From the NCBI RefSeq assembly GCF_000280925.3, contig NZ_CP012109.1, forward strand, positions 8,142,501 through 8,206,500: DNA of 64,000 bases, read 5' to 3'. Below are positions 489-23,621 of the stretch, in pieces; within the stretch, counting starts at the first letter, position 1; each line of letters begins with the position of its first letter. Below the pieces are notes generated by a model. It did no database searches. It saw only the letters and a program-made list of their open reading frames with translations, and had not been told where the DNA came from. This stretch comes from Myxococcus hansupus (GTDB lineage Bacteria > Myxococcota > Myxococcia > Myxococcales > Myxococcaceae). Both the position numbers and the translations under genes were made by a program.

Positions 489-565
489 AGACATCCCACA
501 CGGGGATGTCGGGATTGATGAACGTCGCCTCGGAAAAGCACTCCGACAGGTGAGCGCTCCAGGTT
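489..565 (-). pseudogene. relict of tRNA-like gene plus peptide-B region
   Basis: Read on the minus strand, 10 bases (CCTGTCGGAG) followed by a near-identical ~35-base run match the 3' end of the tRNA-like gene at 2448-2519 and the start of the short ORF after it. The 5' half of the tRNA body is missing, and the ATG of the short ORF is ATC here. The order (hairpin, tRNA 3' end, short ORF) matches the 2.4 kb locus, so I read this as a decayed copy. Confidence 0.45.
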
Positions 566-579
566 CACATGAAAAAGAA

Positions 580-642
580 GAGGCCGGGTCTCCGTGAGGA
601 GCCCCGGCCTCCGACCCGCCATGCCCCGTCCTTCGACGGGGC
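580..642 (-). terminator. double hairpin downstream of relict peptide gene
   Basis: On the minus strand there is a CCCCGTC-GAAG-GACGGGG stem-loop (623-642), then a longer GAGGCCGGG/CCCGGCCTC stem (580-611) followed by a T-rich tract. The same pair of hairpins occurs after the two intact peptide genes at 2.55 and 18.1 kb, which supports a terminator that travelled with the peptide cassette. Confidence 0.6.
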
Positions 643-649
643 TCTTGGC

Positions 650-720
650 TCAGAGCGCCTCGACGCCCCCGACCAGACCCTCCAGGAGGCGGGCTTCGTC
701 GGGCGCTTCAGGTTCGTCAT
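650..720 (-). pseudogene. frameshifted copy of short peptide A
   Basis: The minus strand begins ATG ACG AAC CTG and aligns base by base with the peptide gene at 2621-2743 (shared GAACCTGA, then CCCGA and CCCG blocks). The distance from this ATG to the TGA that matches the stop of the intact copy is 71 bases, not a multiple of three. The N-terminal part (MTNLKRPTKP) and the C-terminal part (LLEGLVGGVEAL) therefore sit in different frames. The AAAGGAG ribosome site of the intact copies is absent. The rest of 489-1079 shows no other gene. Confidence 0.45.
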
Positions 721-2248: not shown

Positions 2249-2321
2249 TGGTCCTGGCAGGAATCGAACCTGCGACCTCTCGGTCCGCAACCGAGTGCTC
2301 TATCCCCTGAGCTACAAGACC
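2249..2321 (-). tRNA. tRNA-Arg (GCG)
   Basis: A complete 73-base cloverleaf: acceptor GGTCTTG with CAGGACC (one GU pair), D-arm GCTC/GAGC with a GG-containing loop, anticodon stem CTCGG/CCGAG with loop TTGCGGA, and T-arm GCAGG-TTCGATT-CCTGC. The anticodon reads GCG (Arg, CGC/CGT codons). Most bacteria read these codons with an A34 (inosine) tRNA-Arg, so G34 is unusual. The rest of the body is canonical, including T33. Confidence 0.85.
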
Positions 2322-2337
2322 GGAACTGCGACTGCGA

Positions 2338-2363
2338 GCGCGCCCCTTTCACGGGGCGCGGTT
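2338..2363 (-). terminator. hairpin after short ORF
   Basis: On the minus strand, CGCGCCCCGTGAAAGGGGCGCG forms a seven to eight pair GC stem with a six-base loop, starting just past the TGA of the 20-residue ORF and ending ahead of tRNA-Arg. There is no clear T tract, so it may instead be a processing or stability element. Confidence 0.45.
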
Positions 2364-2426
2364 TCAGAAGGAAGCGATGCCGTCGAACAGGTCGTCCGGC
2401 TCGGGCGGGATGGGGAGCGGGTTCAT
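2364..2426 (-). CDS. very short ORF (peptide B, 20 aa)
   Basis: Reads MNPLPIPPEPDDLFDGIASF. GAGG lies eight bases upstream of this ATG, a better spacing than the in-frame ATG two codons earlier. It is bounded by the tRNA-like gene (2448-2519) upstream and a GC hairpin downstream. The decayed copy at 0.5 kb shows a related INPDIPVWDVF sequence, which suggests a real peptide family rather than chance. The peptide is acidic and Pro-rich with no signal sequence, and its function is unknown. Confidence 0.35.
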   Translation of the reverse strand: MNPLPIPPEPDDLFDGIASF

Positions 2427-2447
2427 GGTCATCACCTCGGGGAAGAG

Positions 2448-2519
2448 CGCTCCGACAGGGAATCGAACCCTGTTCACTCGGTAGACGGCCGAGCTGCGAT
2501 TCCAATCGCATCCCGGAGC
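2448..2519 (-). tRNA. tRNA-like gene, anticodon position GTC, noncanonical
   Basis: It folds as a full cloverleaf of 72 bases: acceptor GCTCCGG/TCGGAGC, D-arm TGCG-ATTGGAAT-CGCA with the usual GG, anticodon stem CTCGG/CCGAG, and T-arm CAGGG-TTCGATT-CCCTG. The anticodon loop is CCGTCTA, which places GTC (Asp) at 34-36 but has C33 instead of the near-universal T33 and T37 instead of a purine. Position 8 is G. The stems are intact, so it is not simply decayed. It may be nonfunctional in translation or have another role. Confidence 0.55.
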
Positions 2520-2542
2520 AGTGGGGTTGACCCGGAAAAGGA

Positions 2543-2606
2543 AGAGGCCGGGTCTCCTCGGAGAGCCCGGCCTCTGGCCTGCCATTCCCCGTCCTTCGAC
2601 GGGGTG
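2543..2606 (-). terminator. double hairpin terminator of peptide A (copy 2)
   Basis: On the minus strand, CCCCGTC-GAAG-GACGGGG is followed by AGAGGCCGGG...CCCGGCCTCT (10-pair stem, 2543-2575) and then CTTCCTTTTCC. It lies directly after the peptide gene stop at 2621 and is nearly identical to the elements at 580-642 and 18102-18162. Confidence 0.75.
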
Positions 2607-2620
2607 TGGTGGGTCAGAGG

Positions 2621-2743
2621 TCAGTCTCCACGCTCGAAATCAAGAGCGGTGGCACGGCCAGCGCGCGCGAGCACATCGATGCCGATGACAGTATCGTTCA
2701 GGGTGTCGGGATTCATCGGGCTCGTCAGGTTCGCCGTCTTCAT
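2621..2743 (-). CDS. short conserved peptide A (40 aa), unknown family
   Basis: Forty residues starting MKTANLTSPMNPDTLNDTV, with AAAGGAG eight bases before the ATG. A paralogue at 18173-18319 has the same core (LTSPMN-x-DTLNDTV-x-GI-x-VLA) and the same upstream and downstream elements, then a different C-terminus (here Arg/Ala rich, ending FERGD). A conserved start, ribosome site and terminator around a conserved peptide argue that it is translated. There is no signal peptide and only one short hydrophobic run (VIGIDVLA). The conserved N-terminus with a variable tail is the layout of a leader/core peptide, but no modifying enzyme is nearby, so function is open. Confidence 0.6.
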   Translation of the reverse strand: MKTANLTSPMNPDTLNDTVIGIDVLARAGRATALDFERGD

Positions 2744-4103: not shown

Positions 4104-4109
4104 GCGGAG

Positions 4110-4185
4110 TCGGGACGACTGGATTCGAACCAGCGGCCTCGCGCACCCCAAGCGCGCGCTCTTGTCCAAGCTGAGCTACGTCCCG
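4110..4185 (-). tRNA. tRNA-Pro (GGG)
   Basis: A 76-base cloverleaf: acceptor CGGGACG/CGTCCCG, D-arm GCTC/GAGC with an 11-base loop, anticodon stem CGCGC/GCGCG with loop TTGGGGT (anticodon GGG), T-arm GCTGG-TTCGAAT-CCAGT with one GU pair, discriminator A. All standard features including T33 are present. Its 3' end lies six bases from the stop of the convergent VOC gene. Confidence 0.9.
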
Positions 4186-4194
4186 ATGACAACC

Positions 4195-4285
4195 ATGCCG
4201 CAGGCGAGATTCGAACCCGCAACCGGGAGGAGCGAAACCCCAGCAGGATCGCGCCCTTACCTCTCAACCTCCCGGATTGCTTCGG
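4195..4285 (-). other. tRNA-like remnant
   Basis: A clean T-arm (GCGGG-TTCGAAT-CTCGC on the minus strand, 4204-4220) sits next to an eight-pair stem CCGGGAGG/CCTCCCGG (4223-4230 with 4268-4275). A TTGAGAG loop follows one arm, as if an anticodon arm were interrupted by ~30 bases. No acceptor partner for the 3' CTGCGGC is found. It is probably a tRNA broken by insertion or deletion; a class II tRNA with odd structure is less likely. Confidence 0.3.
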
Positions 4286-4334
4286 ATTCGCCATCCCGCC
4301 GCGCTCCCTGTCGTCCCGCCCTGTTCCAGCGCGT

Positions 4335-4380
4335 TCCGCAGGTTCATGCGACACACGTGCAACATGGCGGGGCCTGACAG
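4335..4380 (+). pseudogene. possible integrase 3'-end remnant
   Basis: TGCGACACACGTGCAACA matches TGCGACACAGGTGCAACA in the last codons of the integrase at 17.83 kb with one mismatch. In that frame the translation is CDTRAT against CDTGAT. No integrase body is present upstream. It lies beside tRNA and tRNA-like genes, a usual integration site, so it may be a scar of an older element. The run is short and could be chance. Confidence 0.3.
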
Positions 4381-4400
4381 AGACGGGATTCAGCCCTCGT

Positions 4401-4437
4401 AGAGAGGGGCCGAGTTGCGATGGCTCGGCCCCTCTTG
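4401..4437. terminator. hairpin terminator
   Basis: AGAGGGGCCGAG and CTCGGCCCCTCT form a 12-pair stem with a nine-base loop, followed by TGTTCCT on the plus strand. It lies between the tRNA group and the 3' end of the minus-strand immunity-like gene, and could end transcription from either side. Confidence 0.65.
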
Positions 4438-4532
4438 TTCCTACGGATGGGGGCAACGAGTGTGGCCGTAGCGCGCGCGCCTGACGGGTATTCAGCGCCC
4501 CCCTCACCAGCTTGCGAGGCCACCACTGTTGG

Positions 4533-5000
4533 TCACGCTTCTTCGTTGGGGAGGAGCGTCAGAAGCAACTCGTCATCGGGACCGAGCGGACGCCAGCCGG
4601 TGGGCGGGGGATTGGAGAGAAGCGCATTCCCTGCCCGGTCAACCCGCTCCCTGTGGGTTACTGGGGTGTAGGCGAACCACGACCCAAGCCCCATCGCAAC
4701 CTCTCCATGGGCTGCATCGTCCCGCACGTCCGGCCAGCCGCTCGGGAATCTCTCGGACAACTCGCGCACGAGCACATCACGAACCAAGCGCGTGACCCGC
4801 TTGTGCTGTTCCGCCTCGTACAGCAAGCCGCTCAACACCTGCACCGCAGCAACGTCGTTGCCCAACTCGTCGGCCAGGACGTACAGCGGAACGGCAGGGC
4901 GCGCTTCAGCAAAGGCGGACAGTGAGTCGTACCCTCGCTCGCGGACCCGTTCGTACAAGCGCGCCTTGATGTTGCCCTGCCAAGCGGTTCCGCTGCTCAT
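4533..5000 (-). CDS. immunity-protein candidate, paralogue of next gene
   Basis: 155 residues, no signal peptide, cytoplasmic. It aligns along its whole length with the product of 5092-5562 (shared KARLYERVRERG, FVRD/LVRDV-VRE, GWRP-GPDD and the LLPNEEA end), roughly half identical by eye. It lies 91 bases downstream of that gene at the end of the toxin operon. The tandem placement fits a duplicated or orphan immunity gene that protects against a related toxin variant. The family function is not recognised from motifs. Confidence 0.65.
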   Translation of the reverse strand: MSSGTAWQGNIKARLYERVRERGYDSLSAFAEARPAVPLYVLADELGNDVAAVQVLSGLLYEAEQHKRVTRLVRDVLVRELSERFPSGWPDVRDDAAHGEVAMGLGSWFAYTPVTHRERVDRAGNALLSNPPPTGWRPLGPDDELLLTLLPNEEA

Positions 5001-5091
5001 CGCCTTCTCCTCGGCATGACGTCCAGATTGACTCGTGGCGGCGCTACAGCGTGGCGCCCCACCTCGCTAACCGGCGGGGCACCATGGCCGT

Positions 5092-5562
5092 TCAGGCTTC
5101 GTCGTCAGGAAGGAGTGTTCGGAGCAGCGCATCGTCAGGGCCGCGCGGGCGCCACCCAGGAGGAGGAGGAGACTCACGAAGCACTCCCCGAGCACGCTGG
5201 ACCGCATCTTTGTGAGAGTCCGGTGTGTAGTTGGTCCAGCGCGCCAGCACGTGGGCGATGTCGAAGCGGTTCGCGTCGTCTACGACGGCTGGCCAGCCGT
5301 CAGGTAAGCCATCGGCCAACTCTCGAACGAACACATCGCGAACAAAGCGGGTGACTCGCCCACTCTGCTCTGCCTCGGCAAGCAGTCCGCTCAGTAGCTG
5401 CACCGCTGCCACATCATGCACACCAAGTTGGTCGGCAAGTTCATGCAGCGGCACAGCCGGGTGTGCATCGGCAAAGGCGGTGAGGGAATCATGACCTTGC
5501 TCGCGGACCCGTTCATGGAGACGAGCCTTCCAGTTTCCCTCCCAGGGATGTCCAGCGGTCAT
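5092..5562 (-). CDS. putative immunity protein (SitI-like position)
   Basis: 156 residues, mostly helical and acidic, no signal peptide. The ATG at 5562 overlaps the toxin stop as ATGA, so translation is coupled to the toxin; an upstream ATG at 5574 is possible. The position straight after a lipoprotein toxin with a nuclease-like tail is where the immunity gene of sitBAI modules lies. No conserved catalytic motif is seen. The close paralogue follows at 4533-5000. Binding to the toxin C-terminus is inferred from context only. Confidence 0.65.
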   Translation of the reverse strand: MTAGHPWEGNWKARLHERVREQGHDSLTAFADAHPAVPLHELADQLGVHDVAAVQLLSGLLAEAEQSGRVTRFVRDVFVRELADGLPDGWPAVVDDANRFDIAHVLARWTNYTPDSHKDAVQRARGVLRESPPPPGWRPRGPDDALLRTLLPDDEA

Positions 5563-7085
5563 GGACCTCTCCACGCGGTGAAGTTCATCGGGACCTTATA
5601 GTCCTTCATATTCTTCGCGACGACCTTCAGGACCTCTCTTTGCGTCAACGTCCGACCCGACTCGGCCTCGGCATCTCGAAGCAGCTTCATGATCATCCGA
5701 TTCCACTCGCCGGGCCACATGCGCCCCAACTTCCAATTCCCCCCGCCGTGAATCGCCTCGTGGTGAGACTGCTCCAGCCTCACGCAGAACCGGTCAATGT
5801 CCATGTCACCCTTGAAGCCGCGCCGCTCGAACCACTCCCGGTGCTCTTTCGGTAGGACGTGATGCTTCGGTGCGCTGGACATGCCCGCACCTGCTCTACC
5901 CGTCACCCGCATACCGCGCACCTCGGGACTGTCCCCCAGCGCCTCGCGCACGCCCTCGGGCAAGTCTTGGTGCGCCTGGGCCATCATCACCTGCCCACCG
6001 TGGATGCGAACCGCCGCGCTGACTGCTGGGAGGGAGATGACGCCCGCCTGCACCAGCCTGCGCATTATCTCCACCCACTCAGCCGAGACGACGAGCCGCG
6101 AGCCCGCCATGACGCCCCCTGAACTCATGACGAGCCCCACGCCGAGCGTCGTGGAGGCGGCTGGGGGTGGCCGAGGGAGTGACATGTTCAGCGTGGAAAT
6201 CAGGGCGAGCAGCTCCATCACCTGCGCTGCCACCACGACTTTGCCGCCCACCTCCATGGCCGAGCGCGCCTCCCGACGAATCGTGTCGAACTCGTAAGTC
6301 AGCTCCCCCATCAGCACGGGCATCGCGGTCGCCGCCGTCTCTACCCGCTCCGAGTCCCCCGATGAGAGGTCCGCCAGCGTCGGAGTCACCTTGCTTTGAA
6401 CTCGATGCAGGTCCGCGAACAGCTTCTCGGAGCCGCACATCGGGCAGTCGCGGAGCAAGGCATCAGCGAGTTGCAGGAAGTCCACCCACGTGGCCAGCAG
6501 CAGGGTTCCGAACATCGCAGCCTGGAGCCGGGGCCCTGTCATCTGGAGGATGCCCAGTTCCATTCCTGAATCCCCCACCTCCGAAGCCACTCCCGCCAGC
6601 GCCGTGGCACTCCCCAGCGTTCCTCGGAGCCACGTCAGTTGCTTGGAGCCGTGGTCGATATAGCGCGTAAACACCCCGTCGAAGCCCCGGCTACCAAGAG
6701 AGGAAGGACGCGACGCAAGTCGAGCGCGCGTAGTTTCGATGCCCTCCAGAGAGCGCTTCACCTCAGCAATGGCGTCCAGGGTTGCCTGACGCACCGCTGC
6801 GGCGCTCTGCACTCCACCTCCGACAGCTACGGACGCGGTGCCAGTTGCGGCGTGTCGTGGGCTCAGACTCCGCCACAACCGTTGCTGGGCTTCGGGCCCG
6901 GAGATTGAGAACGGAGAAGCGTCCGACACGCGTGGAGGCTCATCGTTTGGCGCGTGCTCCCACGCGGGGGACAGGGCCATGCGCGGCACGTCATGCAGCG
7001 TTCCGCCAAGCCCGGAGGCATGCGCCATCGAAGCGCATCCCGTGGCCAACACCGGCACCACCCACAGCAGGGCGTTAGCGCGCAT
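5559..7085 (-). CDS. DUF2380/TIGR02269-type lipoprotein, SitA-like toxin
   Basis: 508 residues. The lipoprotein signal ends LATGC with Cys17. The middle ~350 residues are helical and Ala rich, with hydrophobic stretches around residues 180-210 and 290-330. The tail from about residue 405 carries HHVLPKEHREWF and, about 30 residues on, QSHHEAIHGGGN, a His-rich pattern like treble-clef/HNH nuclease toxins. In Myxococcus, SitA lipoproteins are toxins passed between cells by outer-membrane exchange, encoded as sitB-sitA-sitI. The operon here has that order: a barrel-like protein gene overlaps its start by 11 bases and an immunity candidate overlaps its stop by 4. The nuclease activity is inferred. 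Confidence 0.7.
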   Translation of the reverse strand: MRANALLWVVPVLATGCASMAHASGLGGTLHDVPRMALSPAWEHAPNDEPPRVSDASPFSISGPEAQQRLWRSLSPRHAATGTASVAVGGGVQSAAAVRQATLDAIAEVKRSLEGIETTRARLASRPSSLGSRGFDGVFTRYIDHGSKQLTWLRGTLGSATALAGVASEVGDSGMELGILQMTGPRLQAAMFGTLLLATWVDFLQLADALLRDCPMCGSEKLFADLHRVQSKVTPTLADLSSGDSERVETAATAMPVLMGELTYEFDTIRREARSAMEVGGKVVVAAQVMELLALISTLNMSLPRPPPAASTTLGVGLVMSSGGVMAGSRLVVSAEWVEIMRRLVQAGVISLPAVSAAVRIHGGQVMMAQAHQDLPEGVREALGDSPEVRGMRVTGRAGAGMSSAPKHHVLPKEHREWFERRGFKGDMDIDRFCVRLEQSHHEAIHGGGNWKLGRMWPGEWNRMIMKLLRDAEAESGRTLTQREVLKVVAKNMKDYKVPMNFTAWRGP

Positions 7086-8424
7086 TGTCCACCCCCAGCC
7101 CCACCGACGCGAAGGCCCCCGGACGCAGCGTTCCTTCCGCAGTGGGGAAGAGCAGCGTGCCGCCCGTCCCCATCGCGTAGAGCTTCCCGCCGAGGAACCT
7201 CCAGCGCACTTCCGCCGCCCCCAGGTAGCGCGCCCCGGGCTGCCCCATGCCCACGCCCAGGCCCTTCAGCGCCACTTCCAGGCTGCGCTCGAAGAGCTGC
7301 ACCGCCACGCGCCCGTCCACGTCGAAGCGCCCCCAGGAGAACGCCTCCGCGCCCAGCGACAGCTTCAGGTGCTTGTTGAGGCCCCCGTAGCTGACGGCGT
7401 CCCAGCCCACTTCGGCCTCTCCGAATGCGGAGTAGCCGTCCGGGAAGCCAGCATCCGCGAGTGGTACCCCCGCCGTGCCCGCAGCCTGAAAGCGCGCCAG
7501 CTCGTAATCCGCTCCGAAGAAGCCTTGCCGGAAACCGCCTTGCTGGCTCCGCGCCTCCAGCCGCAACCTCAGGCGGAGCGTCTCCGTCTGCGTGTCCAGC
7601 CCCGCGCCCGCGACAGCCCCCCATGCGCCGCCCTCGCCAGGACGCCCGCCCCAGCCCGCCACCACGTGGACCTCGTAGTCGGGCCGCAACAACACCCCCG
7701 CCGTTGCGTCCAGGTGCGCCAGCGTCACCGAGGCTGCGCGTCCTCCTGCCCGTCCCCAGTCATGCACGGCGGACACCGCGAGCGTGTAACGGCCCCGCTG
7801 CTTCGGGTGGCCAAAGAGGATGTGCTCCATGTCCAGGGCCACCTCCGCGCCCATCAGTCGCGCGCCCAGCACGTCCGAGGCGAAGGCTTCCGTGTAGAGG
7901 GGGCCAACCTCGGCGGTGAAGATGCCTCCAGCCGGGTGGTAGTCAGGATTCGTGCGGTTGGAGTAGCGGCGGACGAGATGCCCGGAGAGGAGCCGGTGTT
8001 CCTCCAGGGGGCCAAACCAGATGCCCACGGGCGCGTTGTCCGAGCCGAACTTGAGGCCACGGACGAGCTGCCCCCAGTCCGAGAGTGAGTCCCAGTCCTC
8101 TCGCCGCACAATCCCCGCGCCCTCACCACCGCCCCACATCCGAAAGCGCACGGGAGCACCCACGTTGACGCCGAACTCGGGGCCACCATCGATGATGAAA
8201 GTGGGCTCCACCTGGACGAAGCCGTCATCACTCCCAGCGCCCGCGCGAGGGAGCAGCGCGAACGTCGTCGCCTCCAGGCGCGTCAGGTAGTGCCACTTGC
8301 GCGCGGGAGGTGCAGACGGGGCGGTGGAGGCTTCTTCCTCCGGAGCAGGAGGCTCCGAGGCCCATCCCTTCATCGGTAACAGCAACAGCAGCAGCGCGGC
8401 CAGACATCTTCGCATCCTGTGCAT
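7075..8424 (-). CDS. outer-membrane beta-barrel-like protein, first gene of toxin operon
   Basis: 449 residues. Signal peptide residues 1-22 (MHRMRRC, poly-Leu, ending GWASE) with no lipobox Cys. After a short Pro/Ala/Glu linker the protein is a series of alternating polar/aromatic strands (for example FGVNVGAPVRFRMWG and HLKLSLGAEAF) ending in GLGV, consistent with an outer-membrane barrel. AGGAGG lies five bases before the ATG at 8424. It occupies the place of sitB in sitBAI operons, where SitB aids toxin delivery. Whether it is a SitB homologue needs a family comparison. Confidence 0.65.
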   Translation of the reverse strand: MHRMRRCLAALLLLLLPMKGWASEPPAPEEEASTAPSAPPARKWHYLTRLEATTFALLPRAGAGSDDGFVQVEPTFIIDGGPEFGVNVGAPVRFRMWGGGEGAGIVRREDWDSLSDWGQLVRGLKFGSDNAPVGIWFGPLEEHRLLSGHLVRRYSNRTNPDYHPAGGIFTAEVGPLYTEAFASDVLGARLMGAEVALDMEHILFGHPKQRGRYTLAVSAVHDWGRAGGRAASVTLAHLDATAGVLLRPDYEVHVVAGWGGRPGEGGAWGAVAGAGLDTQTETLRLRLRLEARSQQGGFRQGFFGADYELARFQAAGTAGVPLADAGFPDGYSAFGEAEVGWDAVSYGGLNKHLKLSLGAEAFSWGRFDVDGRVAVQLFERSLEVALKGLGVGMGQPGARYLGAAEVRWRFLGGKLYAMGTGGTLLFPTAEGTLRPGAFASVGLGVDNAR

Positions 8425-8544
8425 ACACGCCTCCTGAGCGTGCCCCGGAATGAGGCACGAGAAACACACGTCTCCCGGTCGGCTCCTCGACTTGCGCCGA
8501 GCCGGTGGTGAATCAGCAGTGGTGAGAGGGTTTGAGGGCCGCCG

Positions 8545-9840
8545 CTAAACGGTCGGCTGCTTCGTCAACGCGCGACGCGGGCCTGCGCCGGGCTCCGTTG
8601 GCACGTCGTCCGGGTGGAGAGCGCCCGCCGACGCGTGCCGTGCGCTCCCTCGGGGTGACGGCGCTTCCGTCGTAGGCTCGTAGCCACCCCGCTCCGTGGT
8701 GACAGGGGGCGTGATTCCACCCTCATCGCTGGGCACCTCGAAGTCCCAGAGCCCTTCACTGGCGTCCGCGAGTGCCCGCTGAACCTCCCCCAAGGCATCC
8801 TCGCGCGCGTAGGGCCCCAGCCGCGCCAACTGGGCACGCAGGATGACTTCCAGCTCGGCAGCCGTCCCGAAGCGTTCAGCGGGGCTTCTACGCAGCATCG
8901 TGTGGAGGATGTCCCGAAGGGGGATGGAGAGCCCGCGCGCGGCCTGCTCGACGTCGTCGGATCGGAAGGCCATGGCACACCAGATGGCGTCTTCCGCGAA
9001 CTCGGGCAGCTCCGTCACCACGGACGCGATGGAGGCAGAGAACGCCCGTTCCCGCTCCGGCTTCGACATCCGCGATTCCACCTCTTCGATGCGGACATGG
9101 CCCGGGTCGTAGAGGTGACGGCCCGTGGCGAACTCCAACAGCGTCAGCCCCAGGGAGAACACGTCGGCTCGCGCGTCCACCACCTCGCCCAGCAACATCT
9201 CCGGTGCCGAGTAGAGGACTTCACCTTGAGGGCGCGGCAGGGACGTGGCCAGCCGCCCAGAGAGGCGAGAGAGGGCCACACCGAAATCCGTCAGCCGCAC
9301 CTCACCATGGGGCCCCACGCGAATTCGAGCGGGATTCACGTCCCGGTTGACGATGCCAAGAGGAAAGCCCGCGTCGTCCGTGCGCTCGTGCGCATAGGCC
9401 AGCGCCGCAGCGACTTCCGCGCCCACGTAGAGGATGAACGCCTCGGAGAAGTAGCGCCCGCGTGCCTGGGCGACGGCCAGCAACGTGTTGAGGGACAGCC
9501 CCTCCACATGCTCCATCGCCACGCACAGGCCCTGCGGGATTTCATGGAGGCCATGGACGCGGGCGATGCGCGGGTGACGAAGGTACTGCGCCAACCGCAC
9601 CTCTTCTTCCAGTCGAGCGCGGGCGCGAAGGTACTTCTCCGTCACGTCCGTGGCCTTCGGCACCGGCAAGCACTTGAGCACCACGCAGTCACCGAGGCCC
9701 TTGGGCGTGCGGGTCCGCGCGAGGAGGATTCGCTCACCCACGCGCCCCTCCCCCAAGTCCCGGAAGAACTCGTAGGAGGTGTCGCCATTGGTGAATAGGA
9801 CAGCGCTCCCGGCAGGCCGAGAGTCAGACGGATTGGACAT
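8545..9840 (-). CDS. Ser/Thr protein kinase-like protein with altered catalytic loop
   Basis: 431 residues. It has a Hanks-type fold with VVLK (Lys56), a Glu helix, and TDFG (185-187). The catalytic loop reads NRDVNPARI (165-173) instead of HRD-x-(K/S)-P-x-N: the His is Asn and the magnesium-binding Asn is Arg. The glycine loop is GEGRVGE. After residue ~330 comes an acidic/Pro linker with no membrane segment, so it should be cytoplasmic. The changes point to weak activity or a pseudokinase, although Asp167 and the DFG Asp remain. It is not fused to a recognisable sensor domain. Confidence 0.8.
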   Translation of the reverse strand: MSNPSDSRPAGSAVLFTNGDTSYEFFRDLGEGRVGERILLARTRTPKGLGDCVVLKCLPVPKATDVTEKYLRARARLEEEVRLAQYLRHPRIARVHGLHEIPQGLCVAMEHVEGLSLNTLLAVAQARGRYFSEAFILYVGAEVAAALAYAHERTDDAGFPLGIVNRDVNPARIRVGPHGEVRLTDFGVALSRLSGRLATSLPRPQGEVLYSAPEMLLGEVVDARADVFSLGLTLLEFATGRHLYDPGHVRIEEVESRMSKPERERAFSASIASVVTELPEFAEDAIWCAMAFRSDDVEQAARGLSIPLRDILHTMLRRSPAERFGTAAELEVILRAQLARLGPYAREDALGEVQRALADASEGLWDFEVPSDEGGITPPVTTERGGYEPTTEAPSPRGSARHASAGALHPDDVPTEPGAGPRRALTKQPTV

Positions 9841-10018
9841 GGGCAGGAAGCTCCGAGTGCCCGCGCGAGAGGGATTCGCGCAAAGGCAGACTCAAGGTAC
9901 AGCCAGCCCATTCCGAGTTGAACGACGTGTCAGGTCTAAAAAGATCGAATTGCGCTTCACTCTGAGTGAACAAAGATAGGCCAAATTTGCAAAACTTCTT
10001 TACGTCCTCAGAGGGAAA

Positions 10019-11854
10019 CTAGGGCCAGCGCTCGACGAAGTAGGCAGGAAACGACCGATTGAGGTGCGCCACCCCTGGTTTGGAATCGGGCCCCTTCTCC
10101 ATGTACCCCTTGCTACCCAGGACAATGCACACCGGAACAGTCCGTCCACCCGGCAGGTGCGCCTCCGTATAGCGCCCTACGGCCACATCTCCACTTGTCC
10201 AGAGGTAGCCCGAGAGCAAAGTCCCCTCTGGGAGCCCGCGCACGTCACTAACATCCACCACCCCAGTTACAGGCCCGTCTTCATAGAAGCCCGGCTCCGA
10301 CATCATGCCGGGTTGCCGTCTGTCGAGAGTAAGAATCACTGAATCTCCCGATCTCAAACGCAGCCCGCCCTTTATCTGCCGACTGAACATGACCTCGCGT
10401 GCCTCGGAAGGGCAGTCACCGGGCTCGGGACGTACCTGCGCCCCCGGACAACCGAGGGAGAGCGCGGCGGCAGCAGTCGCACCCGCGCACGTCTTGATGA
10501 ACCCTGCCCACGGCGAGGGGGGCCAGCTCAGACGGGAGGCCAGGGCCTTCGGCTTCCTGGCGGTGGACTCTGCGGGAGGGGACATCGGAACGGGAGCGCG
10601 CTTCACGGGAGGGCTTTCTTTCTCGACAGGTACGGTAGGGGGCAAAGCTACCCCAGGGGACGACGCCAGGGGGGGAGGGGGCACGGTAGGAGGCGGGGAA
10701 GAGGAGGTAAGACCAGCGTCCCCCACCGGAAGGGCCGTAATGGGCGCGCTAGGCATCTCCGCTTTCGAGGCAGGACGCAGGGCCACGTAGCCCGCCAGCG
10801 AGGCCACAACGAGCGCCAGGAAGGCCACAGTGCCCGCCACGCGTCGCCCAGGGGCACGCTTCGGCGTGGAGGTCTGCGCTTCGTCCTGGGGCGCGTCGTT
10901 ATGCGCCACGTCCAGGGCCAGTGGAAGGCGGGGCGTGGGGACATGCAACGTCGCCGTCCACACCTCGCCTTCTTCGTGTAGCAGCGCGTCCAACTCGCGC
11001 CGCATGACTTCGGCGGAAGGGGCGCGCTTCTCGGGGTGACGCTCGATGAAGTGCATGGCCGCAGCGCTCAAGGACACGGGCACGCGCGGATTCAGTGCGT
11101 GCGGCGCGGGGGGAGGCCACTGGGCCCCCACCAGGACGCGGGGCGTTTCGCTCAAAGGCTGAGGATTGGTCAGCACGTCATAGAGGCAGACTCCCAGCGC
11201 GTATACGTCGTCAGTCGCCTTGAACTCGTAACGCGCGTCGTGCTCGTCTCCGCGCTCGCGAAGGAATCGTGTCGCCTCGGGGGAGCGGTAGCGCCGGGTA
11301 CCGGGTGGCAAGGGCGTGTCTGTCAGCTCCGGCGCGAGCGTGTAATCCCCCACGCTGAAGTCCAGGATGAAGGGCTCCCCATCCGAGGCGCGCACAAGGA
11401 TGTTTCCCAGCTTCAAGTCACGATGGAAGACGCCGCGCGAATGCAGGTGGGAAAGAGCGCCCGAGAGCTTGCCAAACACCCGGGCCACTTCATGCGCCGT
11501 GGGGTGCGTCTTCTCCACCCACTCCCCCAGCGTGTAGCCCTCCACGTAGTCCAGGATGATGTAGAGCCACCCCTGGGTTGGGTGCTGCCAGCGTCCGTGG
11601 GCGTGAACCTCCACGACGTTGGCGTGCCCGCTCACCTGGGACAAGCACACCATCTCCCGCAGTAGACGCGCGTCGGCCTGCTCCGCGTCCCCACTGCTGG
11701 CCCGGTGCATGGCCATCTTCATCGCGAAGTGGTGGCCCTCCTTCTCCACGAGGTAGACGGCGCCGAAACTCCCCGCGCCCAGCGGCTTCACGACGTGCCA
11801 TCCGTCCACCGTCTGCCCAGGTTGCAGGTGCGCCGGACTCAACCCGATCAACAT
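10019..11854 (-). CDS. membrane-anchored Ser/Thr protein kinase
   Basis: 611 residues from the ATG at 11854; a longer ORF would overlap the preceding gene. Kinase domain 1-300: GAGSFGAVY (26-34), Lys46, HRDLKLGN (144-151), DFS (165-167) in place of DFG, and a PPGTRRYRSPEA activation end. A single membrane span (VAGTVAFLALVVASLAGYVAL region) follows a ~70-residue linker, then a Pro-rich stalk and a C-terminal ~150-residue domain outside the membrane with GC and DCPSE cysteines. Its preceding DUF2381 gene lies 11 bases upstream, suggesting they work together. Confidence 0.85.
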   Translation of the reverse strand: MLIGLSPAHLQPGQTVDGWHVVKPLGAGSFGAVYLVEKEGHHFAMKMAMHRASSGDAEQADARLLREMVCLSQVSGHANVVEVHAHGRWQHPTQGWLYIILDYVEGYTLGEWVEKTHPTAHEVARVFGKLSGALSHLHSRGVFHRDLKLGNILVRASDGEPFILDFSVGDYTLAPELTDTPLPPGTRRYRSPEATRFLRERGDEHDARYEFKATDDVYALGVCLYDVLTNPQPLSETPRVLVGAQWPPPAPHALNPRVPVSLSAAAMHFIERHPEKRAPSAEVMRRELDALLHEEGEVWTATLHVPTPRLPLALDVAHNDAPQDEAQTSTPKRAPGRRVAGTVAFLALVVASLAGYVALRPASKAEMPSAPITALPVGDAGLTSSSPPPTVPPPPLASSPGVALPPTVPVEKESPPVKRAPVPMSPPAESTARKPKALASRLSWPPSPWAGFIKTCAGATAAAALSLGCPGAQVRPEPGDCPSEAREVMFSRQIKGGLRLRSGDSVILTLDRRQPGMMSEPGFYEDGPVTGVVDVSDVRGLPEGTLLSGYLWTSGDVAVGRYTEAHLPGGRTVPVCIVLGSKGYMEKGPDSKPGVAHLNRSFPAYFVERWP

Positions 11855-11865
11855 GGAAGGCGGTT

Positions 11866-12813
11866 CTAGAACGCAAAGCGCGGAATGAGAAGGCGCCGAG
11901 TGCCCCCACCGTCGCGCAGTTCTAACCGGAGAGCCGCGCCTTCTGGCCAAGTGGGCGCTCCTGTCTCCACCACCACGAGGGCGGTGCCACCCGGTTCAAT
12001 CCGGGGTTCCTTCATGCGCACCGCGAGCACGTTGATGCGTTCACCGTTCGCAGCCACGGTGAGCCGTGCCTCTACAGGCGTCCAAGGCTCCGCGCCTGTG
12101 TTGTGTACCCGAAGAGCGAGTGTTGCCCAGGAGCTTGTTCGATGCGTCCACCCTTCCCTGAACTCAAGCCCGCCTTCCCCTTTCTGGCCGATTCCTGGTT
12201 CGACTCTTCCACTCTGTAAACCACCTCTATCGAGCAGACCCGCGAAGATCATCCCAACCGGGCCGCTCGCAGCGCTGCGGGCCCGGAGCACTTCCAACTC
12301 GGCAGCATTGGCCGCACAAGCGGCGCGCACGTCGTCCAACTCGGCCTGAATCGCATCTGCCGTACGCGGCAGGCGCGACACCATCACTTGCACGTCCACC
12401 TCGGCAGGGTGCGTGACCAGCGAGAACACGACGCGGGATGGGGCCGCGCCATCCGCGAACGGGACGATCAGCTCCACGCTTCGTCCAGGCCCCAGCCCCA
12501 TCGCAGGCTTGAGGAAGATGGCCCGAGTCGTGACCTCGAACAGCGCGAACCGACTTCCACCGTCCCCGAGCACCACCGCGTCGCGGGCCACAGGGGAGTC
12601 GAACTCCAACGCGGTGAGGTAGTCCGGAGCGACGTGAAGCGCCACAGGCTTGTCTGCGGTTGCCACCGAGAGCGCCACCCGCCGCCGCTTCAGCTCCCGC
12701 GCGCGGAGGGGCTCCTGGGGCTGTGCCGCAGCCGTTAGGCCCACCAGGAACACGAGGGGCAGGACAAGCCGGGCCAGTGACGAGAACACGCGCGGGCGAC
12801 CTCCATGGGGCAT
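11866..12813 (-). CDS. DUF2381 (TIGR02268) family protein
   Basis: 315 residues. The start at MPHGG (12813) gives a signal peptide with a strongly hydrophobic core (LARLVLPLVFLVGLTAAAQ) and no lipobox, so the protein is exported. The N-terminal half is strand-rich (VALHVAPDYLTALEFDSP). It continues with a coiled stretch around residues 165-195, and a C-terminal immunoglobulin-like half (WATLALRVHNTGAEPW). This matches the myxobacterial paralogous family TIGR02268/DUF2381, which often lies beside kinase genes, as here. The function is unknown. Confidence 0.75.
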   Translation of the reverse strand: MPHGGRPRVFSSLARLVLPLVFLVGLTAAAQPQEPLRARELKRRRVALSVATADKPVALHVAPDYLTALEFDSPVARDAVVLGDGGSRFALFEVTTRAIFLKPAMGLGPGRSVELIVPFADGAAPSRVVFSLVTHPAEVDVQVMVSRLPRTADAIQAELDDVRAACAANAAELEVLRARSAASGPVGMIFAGLLDRGGLQSGRVEPGIGQKGEGGLEFREGWTHRTSSWATLALRVHNTGAEPWTPVEARLTVAANGERINVLAVRMKEPRIEPGGTALVVVETGAPTWPEGAALRLELRDGGGTRRLLIPRFAF

Positions 12814-13064
12814 GGCAGGACCGTACCAGGATGCGCGCGGCTTCCAGCCCTTCTCCGTTTGTCCTGGCACGAAGGAGGCGGCGGTTTTTCTCTAAACCTA
12901 TGCCCCGCGCCCCTCAAAACTCCCCGCCACTCGAAGCGCTCAGCCTCACGCGGCATGTGTTCAGGAAGTTCCGGAACCACGGCATCACGCTGAACAAATC
13001 ACTCCTGGGGCCCGGCGATTTTCCGTGGAGTTTTCTCAGCGTGGGGGACCGCCGAGCACGGCCC
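12814..13064. other. intergenic region, no gene seen
   Basis: This lies between the DUF2381 start and the integrative module. It is of lower GC around 12890-12990 than its surroundings and contains no ORF with a ribosome site that I can support. It should contain the DUF2381 promoter and possibly the left boundary of the element; no repeat matching the integrase-side tRNA is seen here. Confidence 0.4.
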
Positions 13065-13078
13065 TGAGTGGCCACTCA
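13065..13078. promoter_or_regulatory. 14-bp perfect palindrome, possible operator
   Basis: TGAGTGGCCACTCA reads the same on both strands. It lies 186 bases upstream of the first gene of the integrative module, which encodes a small winged-helix protein. A dimeric regulator site is likely; the regulator is inferred. Confidence 0.4.
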
Positions 13079-13118
13079 TCGGAAATCCGAGCCGGGGGGC
13101 CTGCCGCAGGTCGCCCGA

Positions 13119-13237
13119 GCCACCCACGGAATCCACACGCATTTAGCTGGGGCCACCCCCAGTCAGTCGTGGCCGAGAAATGGCCCGGAAATGGTCGCGT
13201 AGGCCACCCGCAAAAACCGCACGCATTTACCGGGGGC
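13119..13237 (+). repeat. two imperfect direct repeats upstream of the integrative module
   Basis: GCCACCCACGGAATCCACAC plus GCATTTAGCTGGGG (13119-13152) recurs as GCCACCCGCAAAAACCGCAC plus GCATTTACCGGGGG (13203-13236), 84 bases apart. They end 27 bases before the GTG of the first gene. Possible roles are iterons for the encoded primase/helicase, regulator sites, or directional sites of the recombinase. Confidence 0.5.
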
Positions 13238-13263
13238 ATGACATCGCTAGAGGAGTCCAACGC

Positions 13264-13500
13264 GTGATTGAACAGGTTGAGCAGTACCGCCCCCGCATCG
13301 TCGCAGCACTCACAGACGCGGGTCCCCAGGGGCGCACCGTGAAGGAGCTGTGCGGCGCGCTTGGAGCGGGAGAGCAGGCCATCCGGCGCAGTCTCGCGGT
13401 GCTCGTCGCGGCTGGCGTGGTGCGCGAGTTCTCCAAGTACCAGCCCGGCGTTCGCGGCGCGGTGCCTCGGGCCTACAGCCTTGTCGGGAAGGGCGAATGA
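13264..13500 (+). CDS. small winged-helix DNA-binding protein
   Basis: 78 residues. The GTG at 13264 is chosen because GAGGAG lies eight bases upstream. The sequence TVKELCGALGAGEQAIRRSLAVL is a helix-turn-helix and VVREFSKYQPG...RAYSL is the wing, so it should bind DNA. It is first of five genes, and its stop overlaps the next ATG (ATGA at 13497). It is likely the element's own regulator. Confidence 0.7.
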   Translation: MIEQVEQYRPRIVAALTDAGPQGRTVKELCGALGAGEQAIRRSLAVLVAAGVVREFSKYQPGVRGAVPRAYSLVGKGE

Positions 13501-14876
13501 GCACGCGCTGTCCCCAACCCCCCCGAGGCCATGACGCTGTGACTGACGGACGATGGTTTCCACTCCCTCTTCTTCTTTCTTCTCTTAGGAATGAGAGGTC
13601 TCCGTCACTCCGTCACCTACAGAGTGAAAAAGGCCATGACGGAGCTGTGACGGAACACCCAGCGTCCGAGCGTCCGTCACACCCCCGCGAAGTGGCTCCA
13701 CTCCCCGAGCAACACCGCGCCGTCGTCGTGCCTCCGTCGAGTTCCCCAGCGTCGTGCCCCATGACTTGGACTCTCTGCATCACTCCCTCGCGCTTCCAAC
13801 CAGACCAACTCTCTGTCCGGGAGTTCTCGTCCATTGATGGCCTCATGTCGGAGTTCTTCGAGGACGCCCTGGACCCGACGCTTCGCACGGAGAAGGACGG
13901 TCACGCCGTCATCCCCGCCAAGCCTCTCCCACCGCGTACGGATGGCTTGTACGAGGGCAAGGGCGGCGCCCCCACGCCCACGCCGTACAGGCGCAATGCT
14001 AACTTCTCGCACGTCACCATGGCCGTCGTGGACTTCGACTGCGAGGAGCAGGCCGCGCTGGACTCGTGGCTCGCGAGCCTTCGCCAGCGGGGCCTCTGGT
14101 TCCTCGCATACCCGACCCATTCCTACGGGCATCCCATCAAGCCCATCCGCTACCGCGTCGTCCTCCCGTTCAGTGAGCCCGTCGCGGTTGGCTCGCCAAG
14201 CCGGTGGGCCGACAGCCTCTGGCCGCGCCTCATGGACTACTTGGGACTCGCGGCACAGGCGACGGCCGCGCTGAAGGCGGATGCGTCCTGCAAGGACGTG
14301 GCGCGCCTCTACTACCTTCCAAGCTGGAACCCCGCGAACCCGACCCCGCGCCCTGCTCCCGAGCATCACCGCGGCCAACCGCTCGACGTGGAAGCGCTGT
14401 TTGGCCCCATGCTGCGCCAGCCGTTTGCCCGCTACGTCGAGCGCCCCGACATGCAGCAGGTCACCGGAGCGGCCTCCGTGGACCTCCAGGCCGTTCGGAA
14501 GCGACTGCGCCGCTTCAACCGGAAGGACTACTGCCAGGTCATCGCGCAGATGGACGCAGGCGAAGTGCTCATGCTCGACGGCCAGCGCCACCTTGGCATC
14601 AACCGGCTGACGGAGATGCTCGCCAGGGTTGCCGCACCGGACGAAAGCTCGAAGAGCCTGCTCGCCATCGCCCAGCGCTCACTGGATGCGCTCGGCAAGC
14701 TGGAGCCCTCCCGCGACGTCTGGGGGGAGGCGCTTCGAGGACTGGACGGCGCACGCGCCAAGCTCCAGCAGTGGGACCTTCAGCGGAAGGCCAATCGCGA
14801 AGCGGAAGAAGCCGCATGGCGTCGAACCGTCCTGCTCGTGGCGACCTCCAACCATCGAACTGGGAGCGCCTCATGA
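13497..14876 (+). CDS. primase-like replication protein of the element
   Basis: 459 residues if translation starts at the ATG overlapping the preceding stop (ATGA); an internal start at 13759 (MTWTLC) would begin just before the conserved part. The core around residues 170-260 has VDFDCEE, then YPTHSYG, then RYRVVLPFS, the spacing of archaeo-eukaryotic-type primases of plasmids and phages, with two metal-binding acids. The C-terminal ~180 residues are helical (QAVRKRLRRFNRKDY). It should make primers for element replication with the helicase that follows. Confidence 0.65.
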   Translation: MSTRCPQPPRGHDAVTDGRWFPLPLLLSSLRNERSPSLRHLQSEKGHDGAVTEHPASERPSHPREVAPLPEQHRAVVVPPSSSPASCPMTWTLCITPSRFQPDQLSVREFSSIDGLMSEFFEDALDPTLRTEKDGHAVIPAKPLPPRTDGLYEGKGGAPTPTPYRRNANFSHVTMAVVDFDCEEQAALDSWLASLRQRGLWFLAYPTHSYGHPIKPIRYRVVLPFSEPVAVGSPSRWADSLWPRLMDYLGLAAQATAALKADASCKDVARLYYLPSWNPANPTPRPAPEHHRGQPLDVEALFGPMLRQPFARYVERPDMQQVTGAASVDLQAVRKRLRRFNRKDYCQVIAQMDAGEVLMLDGQRHLGINRLTEMLARVAAPDESSKSLLAIAQRSLDALGKLEPSRDVWGEALRGLDGARAKLQQWDLQRKANREAEEAAWRRTVLLVATSNHRTGSAS

Positions 14877-16408
14877 CTCCGAACTGCCCTCCCGAAAATG
14901 AGGCCGCTTCGAACGCCGACGAAGAAGCTGCACGCGCCGTTGTTGCGAGACTTCCTCTGGTGAAGGTCGTCCCCCTGGAGCGTTACCTGTCGCGCCGACC
15001 GGGTGGCCGCTCCTTCAGCTCGGACTTCCTCACCCAGAAGGCCGCCGAGGACTACTTGATACTGCGCCAGCTTCTCCACCCACGCGACACGTGGCCGAGA
15101 GGTGCCAGCCCCTTGGCCGTAGGACCCAACGTGTCGCAGCTCTGCGTCGGAGTCATGGGGCTCGAATGCCGCCCCAACGCCCCCGAGCTGTTGCCTCGCG
15201 AGGACGACACGTACGCGGTCAACACGTGGGAGGCACCAACGCTTACCCCTGCACCGGGGGACTGGGCCGACGTGCGACGCGTCCTTCTCTGGCTCGCGGA
15301 GGATGAAGCCGGGCTCGATTGGCTCCTGAACTGGATTGCGTTCAAGGTGCAGAACCCAGGCTCCAAGCCAGGAACCGCAGTCCTTCTCCAGGGCCCCCCG
15401 GGCACCGGAAAGAACGTGCTCTATCGCATCCTGGCGCACGTACTCGGCCCCGCGAACTGCGTCCAGATTGGGGAAGCCGACCTCGCCAAGCCCTACAATC
15501 ACCACTTCGCCACGAAGCTGTTGGTCTTCGCCAACGAGCTGCTCGACAACCACAAGCGTGGTGGGTCGCTGGGCGACGGTCTCAAGGCGACCATCACCGA
15601 TGGCGAGGTGTTCCTGGAGAGCAAGGGCGTTGCCCGTACCCCAGCGGTCAACCGCGTCGCGCTCGTCGCGGCGACCAACCGCTCCAAGCCCATCGAACTG
15701 GAGGAGAGCGACCGGCGATGGACGGTCTTCCACAACAGGACGAAGCCCGCCGAGTACCAACACCCGGACCTGGGGCTGTCCCACCGCGATTTCTTGGAGT
15801 CGCTCCATGCTCCGGGCACGGATGACGCCTTCACACGAGAGTTCATGCGGCAGGTGGCCGCCTTCGCCTACGAGATGAACACCCGAGCGGTGGACATGAA
15901 GCGCGTCCGCAGACCGCACACGAACGCATCCCGCGATGAACTCCAGCAACTCAGCGAGCCCGTAACGGAGCAATTCCTCCGAGAACTCAGCGAGAGCCCC
16001 GAGCCAGACCGACAGCTCTACAATTGGGCGACACACGTCCCCTACTACGCCTCGATTTGGACCACGACCACGGGGCCCCGAGTCGGAAAGACTCAAGCGA
16101 TCACAAATGACGCCCTCTTCGTGGCCATGGTGGGTTTCTGCAAGTCCACCGGACAGAAGCACCCACCACAGAAACGGACCTTCCTTGCCGCGCTGAAGGC
16201 AGCGGGTTGGATTGAGCACCGCGACAGCAAGGCGCGGGGCTGGATTCCTCCGTGGCACGTGAGCGGGAGCAACGTCCTTTCGAGCAACGAAGCGAAGGTA
16301 GTTCCGTTCCCTGCGCCGAACTCCATCCCACCATCAACCTCGAATGCCCATCCCCACTTTACGAGGCCGCGATCCCTGCGGGACCGACTGCTGGGGAAAC
16401 CTTCATGA
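14873..16408 (+). CDS. primase-associated helicase / P4-type ATPase
   Basis: 511 residues; the ATG overlaps the primase stop (ATGA at 14873). Walker A GPPGTGKN (174-181), then a KLLVFANELLD Walker B-like strand, a sensor strand VALVAATNRSKP and the following ERR-like arginine region fit the DUF5906/virulence-associated-E helicase type found in phage P4-like elements. The C-terminal ~100 residues look like a DNA-binding domain (TFLAALKAAGWIEHR). It is probably a hexameric replicative helicase that unwinds at the element origin. Confidence 0.75.
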   Translation: MTPNCPPENEAASNADEEAARAVVARLPLVKVVPLERYLSRRPGGRSFSSDFLTQKAAEDYLILRQLLHPRDTWPRGASPLAVGPNVSQLCVGVMGLECRPNAPELLPREDDTYAVNTWEAPTLTPAPGDWADVRRVLLWLAEDEAGLDWLLNWIAFKVQNPGSKPGTAVLLQGPPGTGKNVLYRILAHVLGPANCVQIGEADLAKPYNHHFATKLLVFANELLDNHKRGGSLGDGLKATITDGEVFLESKGVARTPAVNRVALVAATNRSKPIELEESDRRWTVFHNRTKPAEYQHPDLGLSHRDFLESLHAPGTDDAFTREFMRQVAAFAYEMNTRAVDMKRVRRPHTNASRDELQQLSEPVTEQFLRELSESPEPDRQLYNWATHVPYYASIWTTTTGPRVGKTQAITNDALFVAMVGFCKSTGQKHPPQKRTFLAALKAAGWIEHRDSKARGWIPPWHVSGSNVLSSNEAKVVPFPAPNSIPPSTSNAHPHFTRPRSLRDRLLGKPS

Positions 16409-16656
16409 GCCACAGCACCTGTCGCAAGGCCCCTGTGCTCGCAGCGGTGGCCCGCACCGGGGTTCCCGACTTCCTCACCGTGGAAGAGGCCGCAGCACTC
16501 CTGCGCGTAAATCGGAAGACGCTCTATGAGTCCATCCGGCTCGGACAGATGCCCGGAGTCGTCCGCGTCGGGAAAGCGGTCCGCATCCGCCGCGCAGCAT
16601 TGGTAGAATGCCCAACAGGTAAGGGCCGTGATTCTGCGCTCGGGAGTCACCGATGA
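16405..16656 (+). CDS. excisionase-like HTH protein
   Basis: 83 residues; the ATG overlaps the helicase stop (ATGA). Residues ~22-70 are a MerR/HTH_17-type helix-turn-helix: DFLTVEEAAALLRVNRKTLYESIRLGQMP, then VRVGKAVRIRR. Proteins of this type next to a tyrosine integrase act as recombination directionality factors. It is followed by the integrase with another ATGA overlap. Confidence 0.75.
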   Translation: MSHSTCRKAPVLAAVARTGVPDFLTVEEAAALLRVNRKTLYESIRLGQMPGVVRVGKAVRIRRAALVECPTGKGRDSALGSHR

Positions 16657-17879: not shown

Positions 17880-17895
17880 TTAGGCTCGGAAAACT

Positions 17896-17969
17896 TGCCG
17901 CGAGCGGGATTCGAACCCGCACCCTCTGCATTCTGAGTGCAGCGCCTCTACCGATTGGGCTACCGCGGC
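17896..17969 (-). tRNA. tRNA with anticodon CAG but class I body
   Basis: A 74-base cloverleaf: acceptor GCCGCGG/TCGCGGC, D-arm GCCC...GGC with GG, anticodon stem CTGCA/TGCAG with loop CTCAGAA (anticodon CAG, Leu codon CTG), variable loop of only five bases (AGGGT), T-arm GCGGG-TTCGAAT-CCCGC, discriminator A. Bacterial tRNA-Leu normally has a long variable arm, so a short-arm CAG tRNA is odd. It is next to the integrase stop and is the probable integration target. Confidence 0.75.
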
Positions 17970-18075: not shown

Positions 18076-18101
18076 GCGTGCCGCACCGGCCCTGAAAAGC
18101 A

Positions 18102-18162
18102 AGAGGCCGGGGTCCCGCTGGGGAGCCCGGCCTCTGACCTGCCACGCCACGTCGAAGGACGG
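18102..18162 (-). terminator. hairpin terminator of peptide A (copy 3)
   Basis: AGAGGCCGGG/CCCGGCCTCT stem (18102-18135) with a short CGTC-GAAG-GACG hairpin (18150-18161 region) before it on the minus strand. It follows the peptide stop at 18173 and matches the elements at 0.6 and 2.55 kb. It lies 27 bases before the glycine-type tRNA. Confidence 0.7.
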
Positions 18163-18172
18163 GCGCGAGGCG

Positions 18173-18319
18173 TCAGAAGCCGGGCTCCCTACCGCCAGCG
18201 GGTAGGCGAGGCAGCACGGGAGCGGGACCGAAGGCGACGGGCGCGAGCACACCGATGCCGAGGACAGTGTCGTTCAAGGTGTCGGAATTCATCGGGCTCG
18301 TCAGGCACATCGTCGTCAT
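18173..18319 (-). CDS. short conserved peptide A (48 aa), paralogue
   Basis: 48 residues beginning MTTMCLTSPMNSDTLNDTV, with AGGAG seven bases before the ATG. It shares the LTSPMN-x-DTLNDTV-x-GI-x-VLA core with the peptide at 2621-2743, then diverges into a Pro/Ala/Gly-rich tail ending GREPGF. Upstream blocks and the downstream double hairpin are also shared. There is no modifying enzyme or transporter next to it. Its constant neighbours are a terminator and unusual tRNA genes. Confidence 0.6.
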   Translation of the reverse strand: MTTMCLTSPMNSDTLNDTVLGIGVLAPVAFGPAPVLPRLPAGGREPGF

Positions 18320-18372
18320 GTCACCGCTCCTTTCTGCGGAAAATGACGCGAGAAAAACGCTGGGCCTGACAC
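18320..18372 (-). promoter_or_regulatory. conserved upstream region of peptide A paralogue
   Basis: The same ordered blocks as at 2744-2800: TGTCAGGC, GCGTC, ATTTTCC and GAAAGGAGCGGTG. Conservation outside the coding sequence supports a shared promoter and leader. Confidence 0.4.
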
Positions 18373-23437: not shown

Positions 23438-23621
23438 GGGGCCGGTTGTACCCGGATTCCATCGCGTCGTCACTGGCACGACGCTCGCCTGCCTGGGTGC
23501 TTGTGAAGGCGGGGGCGCGGACGTGACCGGAATCGGGACAGGATTGTCAGGTGTGTCAGGGAGCACCCGGTGTCAGGGATGGATTGTGCGCTCGCGTCAT
23601 GGCGCGGCATCGGAGGTTTCC

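Follow-up and report, generated by a model that had tools for sequence, protein, structure and literature searches.

Why should a gene for a short peptide recur beside tRNA genes of unusual sequence on a myxobacterial chromosome? The wider matter, why bacteria keep redundant, divergent tRNA arrays and what induces them, is an open question; among the literature that we found, the control of such an array is described in one cyanobacterium only, where a repressor exerts it. The window considered here, the whole stretch of 64,000 nucleotides, holds two of the four leader-array units of its source genome (Myxococcus, 9.49 Mb), the other two being placed at 6.84-6.86 Mb. All follow one plan: an ECF-like promoter (TGTCAGG-N15/16-CGTC), a strong ribosome site, a leader ORF of 40-56 codons, a hairpin/terminator and divergent tRNA genes.

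The unit nearer the start of the window (unit 2) is the one in which the sequence-only reading had recognized a peptide gene, a terminator, a tRNA-like gene, a second peptide gene and a tRNA, and each of these parts is indeed present on the minus strand. The promoter motif, with an N16 spacing, occupies 2771-2797 (8145271-8145297 in the genome) and the leader ORF 2621-2743. The 40-residue leader, MKTANLTSPMNPDTLNDTVIGIDVLARAGRATALDFERGD, is a shortened form of a leader of about 50 codons and contains both Asp and Arg, matching its Asp/Arg array. A spacer hairpin (CCCCGTC-GAAG-GACGGGG, 2587-2604) precedes the intrinsic terminator (2536-2575), which is formed by AGAGGCCGGG...CCCGGCCTCT with a T-rich run and has a 5' arm with an alternative pairing upstream. 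The divergent tRNA-Asp(GTC)-like gene at 2447-2519 has C33 and an altered, unusual D arm. The second peptide, MNPLPIPPEPDDLFDGIASF, had been read as an ORF with its own ribosome site; the 20-codon ORF is present (2426-2364), but by similarity it is most likely the remnant of a third leader type (..EDELLEGIASF.., ..EDELLEGIASFR..). On its 3' side are a hairpin (CGCGCCCC-GTGAAA-GGGGCGCG, 2339-2360) and the final tRNA of the unit, a divergent tRNA-Arg(GCG) at 2249-2321. Just downstream of the latter, at 2049-2160, is a 112 nt fragment that is 77% identical to a HEIGH metallopeptidase gene (M57) located at 972-1868 on the plus strand. Repeat comparison within the window also bears out the decayed copy that had been reported at 0.5-0.72 kb, which comprises the leader, the terminator and the 3' part of the tRNA-Asp-like gene (493-720, minus strand).

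The recurrence noted at 17.9-18.3 kb proves to be another copy of the cassette, in better condition, whose tRNAs are for Gly and Leu (unit 1); it too is on the minus strand. Here, the promoter (18345-18371; genome 8160845-8160871) is followed by a leader ORF at 18173-18319, MTTMCLTSPMNSDTLNDTVLGIGVLAPVAFGPAPVLPRLPAGGREPGF, rich in Gly, Leu and Pro and so matching a Gly/Leu(/Pro) array. In the terminator (18092-18145) the 5' arm GTCAGAGGCCGGG can pair with the leader tail CCCGGCTTCTGAC over 13 bp. A divergent tRNA-Gly(GCC) with C33 (18004-18075) and a divergent tRNA-Leu(CAG) of 74 nt that lacks the long variable arm (17896-17969) come next, and the latter serves as the attachment site of a 13.7 kb integrative element (4186-17895) with 34 nt direct repeats at 4191-4224 and 17891-17924 and a tyrosine recombinase gene at 16653-17879 on the plus strand. 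On the far side of the element is a divergent tRNA-Pro(GGG) (4109-4185, minus strand). This is the third tRNA of the unit 1 array, split off by the element; Gly, Leu and Pro are contiguous in the loci L065 and L068 of relatives. The cargo of the element includes an integrase, a DUF5906 protein, two Ser/Thr kinases resembling PD-T4-6 in PADLOC and DUF2381/DUF2380 genes.

Whether homologues of the peptide adjoin tRNA genes in other genomes was a test set beforehand. A search of 96 genomes of the bacterial family by the peptide alone retrieved 29 loci in relatives, and in every one of them the leader is followed by tRNA genes of like orientation; where a wider stretch was taken (20 loci), some 95-115 nt usually separate the leader stop from the start of the first tRNA. 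The test thus came out for a real association, and the arrangement is not due to chance. A search with the conserved terminator added further units, and 84 leader-array units were assembled. When a covariance model of the attenuator was run on 195 Myxococcota genomes, strong matches were confined to the Myxococcaceae (27 of 27 Myxococcus, six of six genomes of genus g3, two of two of genus g5, 16 of 16 Corallococcus and several other genera), and the same architecture is seen in Myxococcus, Corallococcus, Hyalangium and related genera. The terminator pattern also matches in many Streptomyces and other genomes; no tRNAs lie downstream of these matches, which are therefore chance terminators.

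The arrays constitute a second tRNA set. The housekeeping set of the source genome is complete and the arrays duplicate it, and across the family the array tRNAs together cover essentially all amino acids. Region 2 of the source genome (6.843-6.856 Mb) carries Tyr, Pro, Lys, Pro, Gln and Asn genes plus Phe, Trp, Ala and Leu, then an HNH gene and a Ser-like gene. The HNH endonuclease gene (L088:12662-13210, plus strand; 6855162-6855710) is directly 3' of the second array with Ser-type tRNA genes next to it. An ORF of this kind (HNH_5/HNH; PF14279, PF01844) after the array is kept in Myxococcus, Corallococcus and Hyalangium. Array size varies from 25 tRNAs in one Hyalangium array (L201), through 18-20 in region 2 of several Myxococcus, to sub-arrays of one to nine elsewhere, so that the Hyalangium array and several Myxococcus genomes reach the roughly 20 or more clustered, redundant tRNA genes by which tRNA array units are recognized. 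The arrays are chromosomal, and their flanking genes are conserved in Myxococcus (AraC, VOC, MgtE, DUF6929) but belong to another context in genus g3 (FecCD/TonB); among these neighbours we found no conserved gene partner beyond syntenic housekeeping genes. Comparison of the array DNA with plasmids and phages gave short matches only, at the level of tRNA and HNH genes.

The array tRNAs diverge from the housekeeping tRNAs. C33 occurs in 68 of 394 array tRNAs (Asp, Gly-GCC, Leu-GAG and Val-CAC) versus none of 53 housekeeping tRNAs, and every array tRNA-Leu lacks the long variable arm, being 74-77 nt in length rather than 82-86. These two features may weaken decoding or charging. Each isotype has a conserved base 73, and 380 of the 394 have a normal T loop (mostly TTC), from which we infer that the array tRNAs are likely still to be charged. 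An isolated, odd tRNA-Ile(GAT) with a mismatched acceptor stem is also present in the source genome (L100:287-358; 8101787-8101858), with a TGTCAGG..CGTC motif about 200 nt upstream but no recognizable leader ORF.

The link between leader and array lies in amino-acid composition: a leader holds at least one residue of each amino acid that the tRNAs of its own array carry. This holds for 586 of 588 array amino acids, compared with about 83% when leaders are swapped. In the discovery set the match is 499 of 501, against 416.5 with swapped leaders and 414 ± 7 (maximum 434) with random peptides; the permutation z-score over 26 leader clusters is 5.7, and the true pairing is the best or tied-best permutation in 25 of 25 genomes. 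Independent loci, not used in finding the rule, gave 108 of 109 against 93 ± 3.6. That set consisted of 32 units from loci found with the RNA model, two of which (VIACV..., MALRC...) were later recognized as C-termini of the HNH gene and left out of the later counts. Complete leaders were present in 112 of 114 units (59.7 expected from segments of real proteins) and in 17 of the 19 units with arrays of at least eight amino-acid types (0.45 expected on the same basis). Several leaders contain all 20 amino acids, as do two in 20000 random 50-mers. Tyr provides the clearest case: every leader of a Tyr array contains it, as against 8% of other leaders. Since the units had been found via sequence and structure and not by composition, the test is not circular. 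Matching at the level of anticodons is not the rule: the codon for the Gly-CCC tRNA is found in one of 15 leaders and that for Arg-CCT in one of 12. Tyr codons in the leaders of Tyr arrays are mostly TAT (38, with five TAC), despite the prevalence of G or C in third positions of leaders.

Many cases of joint change in a leader and its array serve as natural experiments. In two genomes (G057 and G067) a Glu-Arg-Val array has been joined onto the array before it, whose leader contains R and E (ALRGERAG, ALREERAG); in the unfused G073 and G079 the upstream leader lacks R. In Corallococcus, FASYRL occurs in leaders of Tyr plus Trp arrays and FASFRL, with Y replaced by F, only where tRNA-Tyr is absent; similarly, PDSMDLA accompanies Met-only arrays and PDSLDLA accompanies Pro/Leu arrays. 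Three genomes (G016, G022 and G025) retain the leader Y though tRNA-Tyr has been lost, which reflects either a recent loss or the absence of a strict need.

How might composition be read out? In predicted folds the last 12 nt of the leader and the spacer form a long hairpin with the 5' arm of the terminator. Before the 3' arm exists, at least seven pairs between tail and 5' arm are predicted in 70 of 74 units; if the tail is covered, as it would be with a ribosome on the stop codon, the terminator is predicted to form in 73 of 74. Shuffled GC-rich tails pair with the 5' arm in about 50 of 74 units on average (maximum 55), so this pairing alone is moderate evidence. Own tails pair better than swapped tails (p = 0.005), and in only 34 of 82 ORFs is the tail the segment that pairs best. 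Global alignment of the attenuators recovered the terminator only, and covariation was therefore judged by comparing segments: coupled changes are seen at some positions of the tail, 5' arm and 3' arm, with modest covariation in the antiterminator. The units thus have a terminator and a mutually exclusive antiterminator that uses the ORF tail, with covariation that is modest and a shuffle control that is lenient, and a predicted short ORF with regulatory codons as judged by composition. The match to the array is unchanged when the last six codons are omitted (586 of 588 both ways) and no needed residue is exclusive to them, which is what a switch based on stalling requires, since a ribosome halted close to the stop would cover the tail. 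The architecture, the leader/array match and the complementarity are all computational results.

The promoter pair GTCAG-N13..20-CGTC is found upstream of 106 of 114 leaders, versus 0.16% of shuffles, with a spacing of mostly 16-17. The TGTCAGG..CGTC motif is also upstream of a NADAR/YbiA gene (PF08719) at 23571-24068 on the plus strand of the window, which matches the NCBIfam anti-phage NADAR model DS32_2 below its cut-off and possibly belongs to the same regulon. An ECF sigma factor gene and an adjoining gene for a zinc-finger protein, a possible anti-sigma factor, lie 12 kb from array region 2 (L376:4208-6016; 6829208-6831016). The ECF gene (L376:4208-4876) is divergent from a metallophosphatase gene bearing the same promoter motif, which is kept beside the ECF gene in 18 of 30 relatives. 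As the gene is family-wide we treat its product as no more than a candidate regulator of the arrays.

We consider it probable that the units are transcription attenuators under ribosome control, each placed before a backup tRNA array. The leaders contain the amino acids of the arrays, and an array is therefore probably on when ribosomes are short of those tRNAs; in this sense, the sequence itself suggests the inducer, a shortage of particular aminoacyl-tRNAs, and offers a switch that can be tested. The direction of the switch, the charging and use of the tRNAs and the natural trigger are what we infer. Transcription from the ECF-type promoter would yield a leader RNA with an ORF that has at least one codon for each amino acid served by the array. 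During free translation a ribosome at the stop would cover the last 12 nt, the terminator hairpin would form and the tRNAs would not be made. Were an aminoacyl-tRNA scarce, because the tRNA is destroyed or uncharged or the ribosome is inhibited, the ribosome would stall upstream, the ORF tail would pair with the 5' arm of the terminator and transcription would read on into the divergent replacement tRNAs. Their build-up would let the ribosome complete the leader and so close the loop. A published transcriptome, though designed for another question, fits this attenuator model. In M. xanthus treated with chloramphenicol, tRNA-Tyr, tRNA-Gly, tRNA-Arg and tRNA-Leu from loci unspecified there rose by log2 fold changes of 5.28, 5.27, 4.60 and 2.94, respectively, and the HNH gene MXAN_1486, putatively that of an array, by 8.09; the authors ascribe the rise in tRNAs to fast growth (PMC6617876). 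In M. xanthus-like genomes region 1 holds Gly, Leu, Asp and Arg, and region 2 starts with Tyr and is followed by the HNH gene.

Other explanations have to be set against this attenuator model. The ORF is conserved, has a strong ribosome site and always adjoins tRNAs, so that it might encode a functional peptide (a RiPP or PEARL scaffold, a toxin or a signal) that uses dedicated charged tRNAs, as the sequence-only reading had entertained. PEARL is a peptide aminoacyl-tRNA ligase system, and the units resemble it only in the coexistence of a small peptide with tRNA. The leaders have a pN/pS ratio of about 0.94 over their whole length, and of 1.09 in codons 1-25, which indicates that nucleotides and composition are kept and that the peptide sequence itself is not conserved; the conservation at the C-terminus is accounted for by RNA pairing and the composition follows the array. 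A Pfam scan of conserved neighbours revealed no LanB-like or other ligase, protease or transporter, and the tRNAs cover essentially all amino acids. We have abandoned the peptide-ligase version and regard a functional peptide of any sort as very improbable. It is also rather unlikely, in our view, that the leader acts by an opposite or different logic, such as Rho-coupled translation or control of tRNA processing. The antiterminator is less well supported than the composition, as that idea would have it, but 70 of 74 units combine three-way complementarity with an intrinsic terminator and the needed residues are never confined to the last six codons.

The decayed copy, the reduced Corallococcus arrays, the integrative element in tRNA-Leu and an HNH gene like that of mobile arrays might instead suggest the decaying, now functionless remains of mobile tRNA array units, with a leader match inherited from one ancestral census leader. 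Debris of integrations had indeed been proposed; it describes the 0.5 kb copy and the Corallococcus type of reduction but not the family as a whole, in which leaders alter their composition along with fusions and losses in the arrays, 26 leader clusters retain open frames and terminators and all 27 Myxococcus genomes have the attenuator. We judge general decay to be improbable. A more serious possibility, albeit one that we hold only tentatively, is that the array tRNAs are not for translation but are decoys or resistant replacements that counter tRNA-cleaving toxins or phage or defence nucleases, the leader being a damage sensor only. This is compatible with the attenuator model and would suit C33 and the altered anticodon domains of several isoacceptors. 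Phage tRNAs are reported to evade tRNA-targeting defence (PMC11555353), and mycobacterial tRNA array units are seen as putative antidefence (PMC12803027). However, the neighbour scan showed no toxin or defence gene conserved beside the arrays, the set is not confined to known toxin targets but spans essentially all amino acids, and the drug behind the hint of induction, chloramphenicol, does not cleave tRNA.

Leader-peptide attenuators of amino-acid biosynthesis are familiar from the trp and his operons. Attenuation of amino-acid operons has been modelled (PMC1183508) and bmrCD has an antibiotic-induced attenuator (PMC4191407). With these, the units share a short ORF with regulatory codons, an overlapping tail and a choice between terminator and antiterminator; they differ in that what is regulated is tRNA genes, and the ORF samples two to 19 amino acids instead of repeating one. 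The tRNA array units of Mycobacterium, plasmids and phages have 20 or more tRNA genes in a cluster that serves 19-20 amino acids, often with an HNH gene (PMC5966550, PMC12803027). The myxobacterial arrays are like them in having tRNAs that are redundant with and divergent from the housekeeping set and, often, an HNH endonuclease gene; the earlier suggestion of a mobile tRNA array thus came close for the tRNA half, HNH-bearing units being known, and the cassette that repeats peptides with nonstandard tRNAs is real. They are unlike them in being chromosomal across a bacterial family and in being divided into sub-arrays, each with a leader ORF and a terminator; in the single mycobacterial plasmid array that we checked (L363) no leader ORF was found before the array. 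The trn operon of Anabaena PCC 7120, with 26 tRNAs, is silent, repressed by TrcR and induced by translation antibiotics (PMC10272220). It is likewise a second, inducible tRNA set turned on by translational stress, but control there is by a DNA-binding repressor, and that paper mentions no leader peptide or attenuator. In the literature searched, we found no paper that joins tRNA arrays with leader-peptide attenuation or reports such myxobacterial arrays. As a kind, tRNA arrays are already known; the matched leaders appear to be new.

Taken genome-wide, the units may form a self-monitoring reserve for translation, an idea that we consider evenly balanced: a near-complete second tRNA set would be split into regulons, each freed by its own census peptide upon a shortage of the amino acids that it supplies, such that damage to any tRNA class would be sensed and repaired by replacement. 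If the attenuator model is right, leader-peptide attenuation, a mode of control so far linked with individual amino acids or drugs, is able to monitor almost the entire genetic code, and the second tRNA set would help myxobacteria to survive when translation is attacked.
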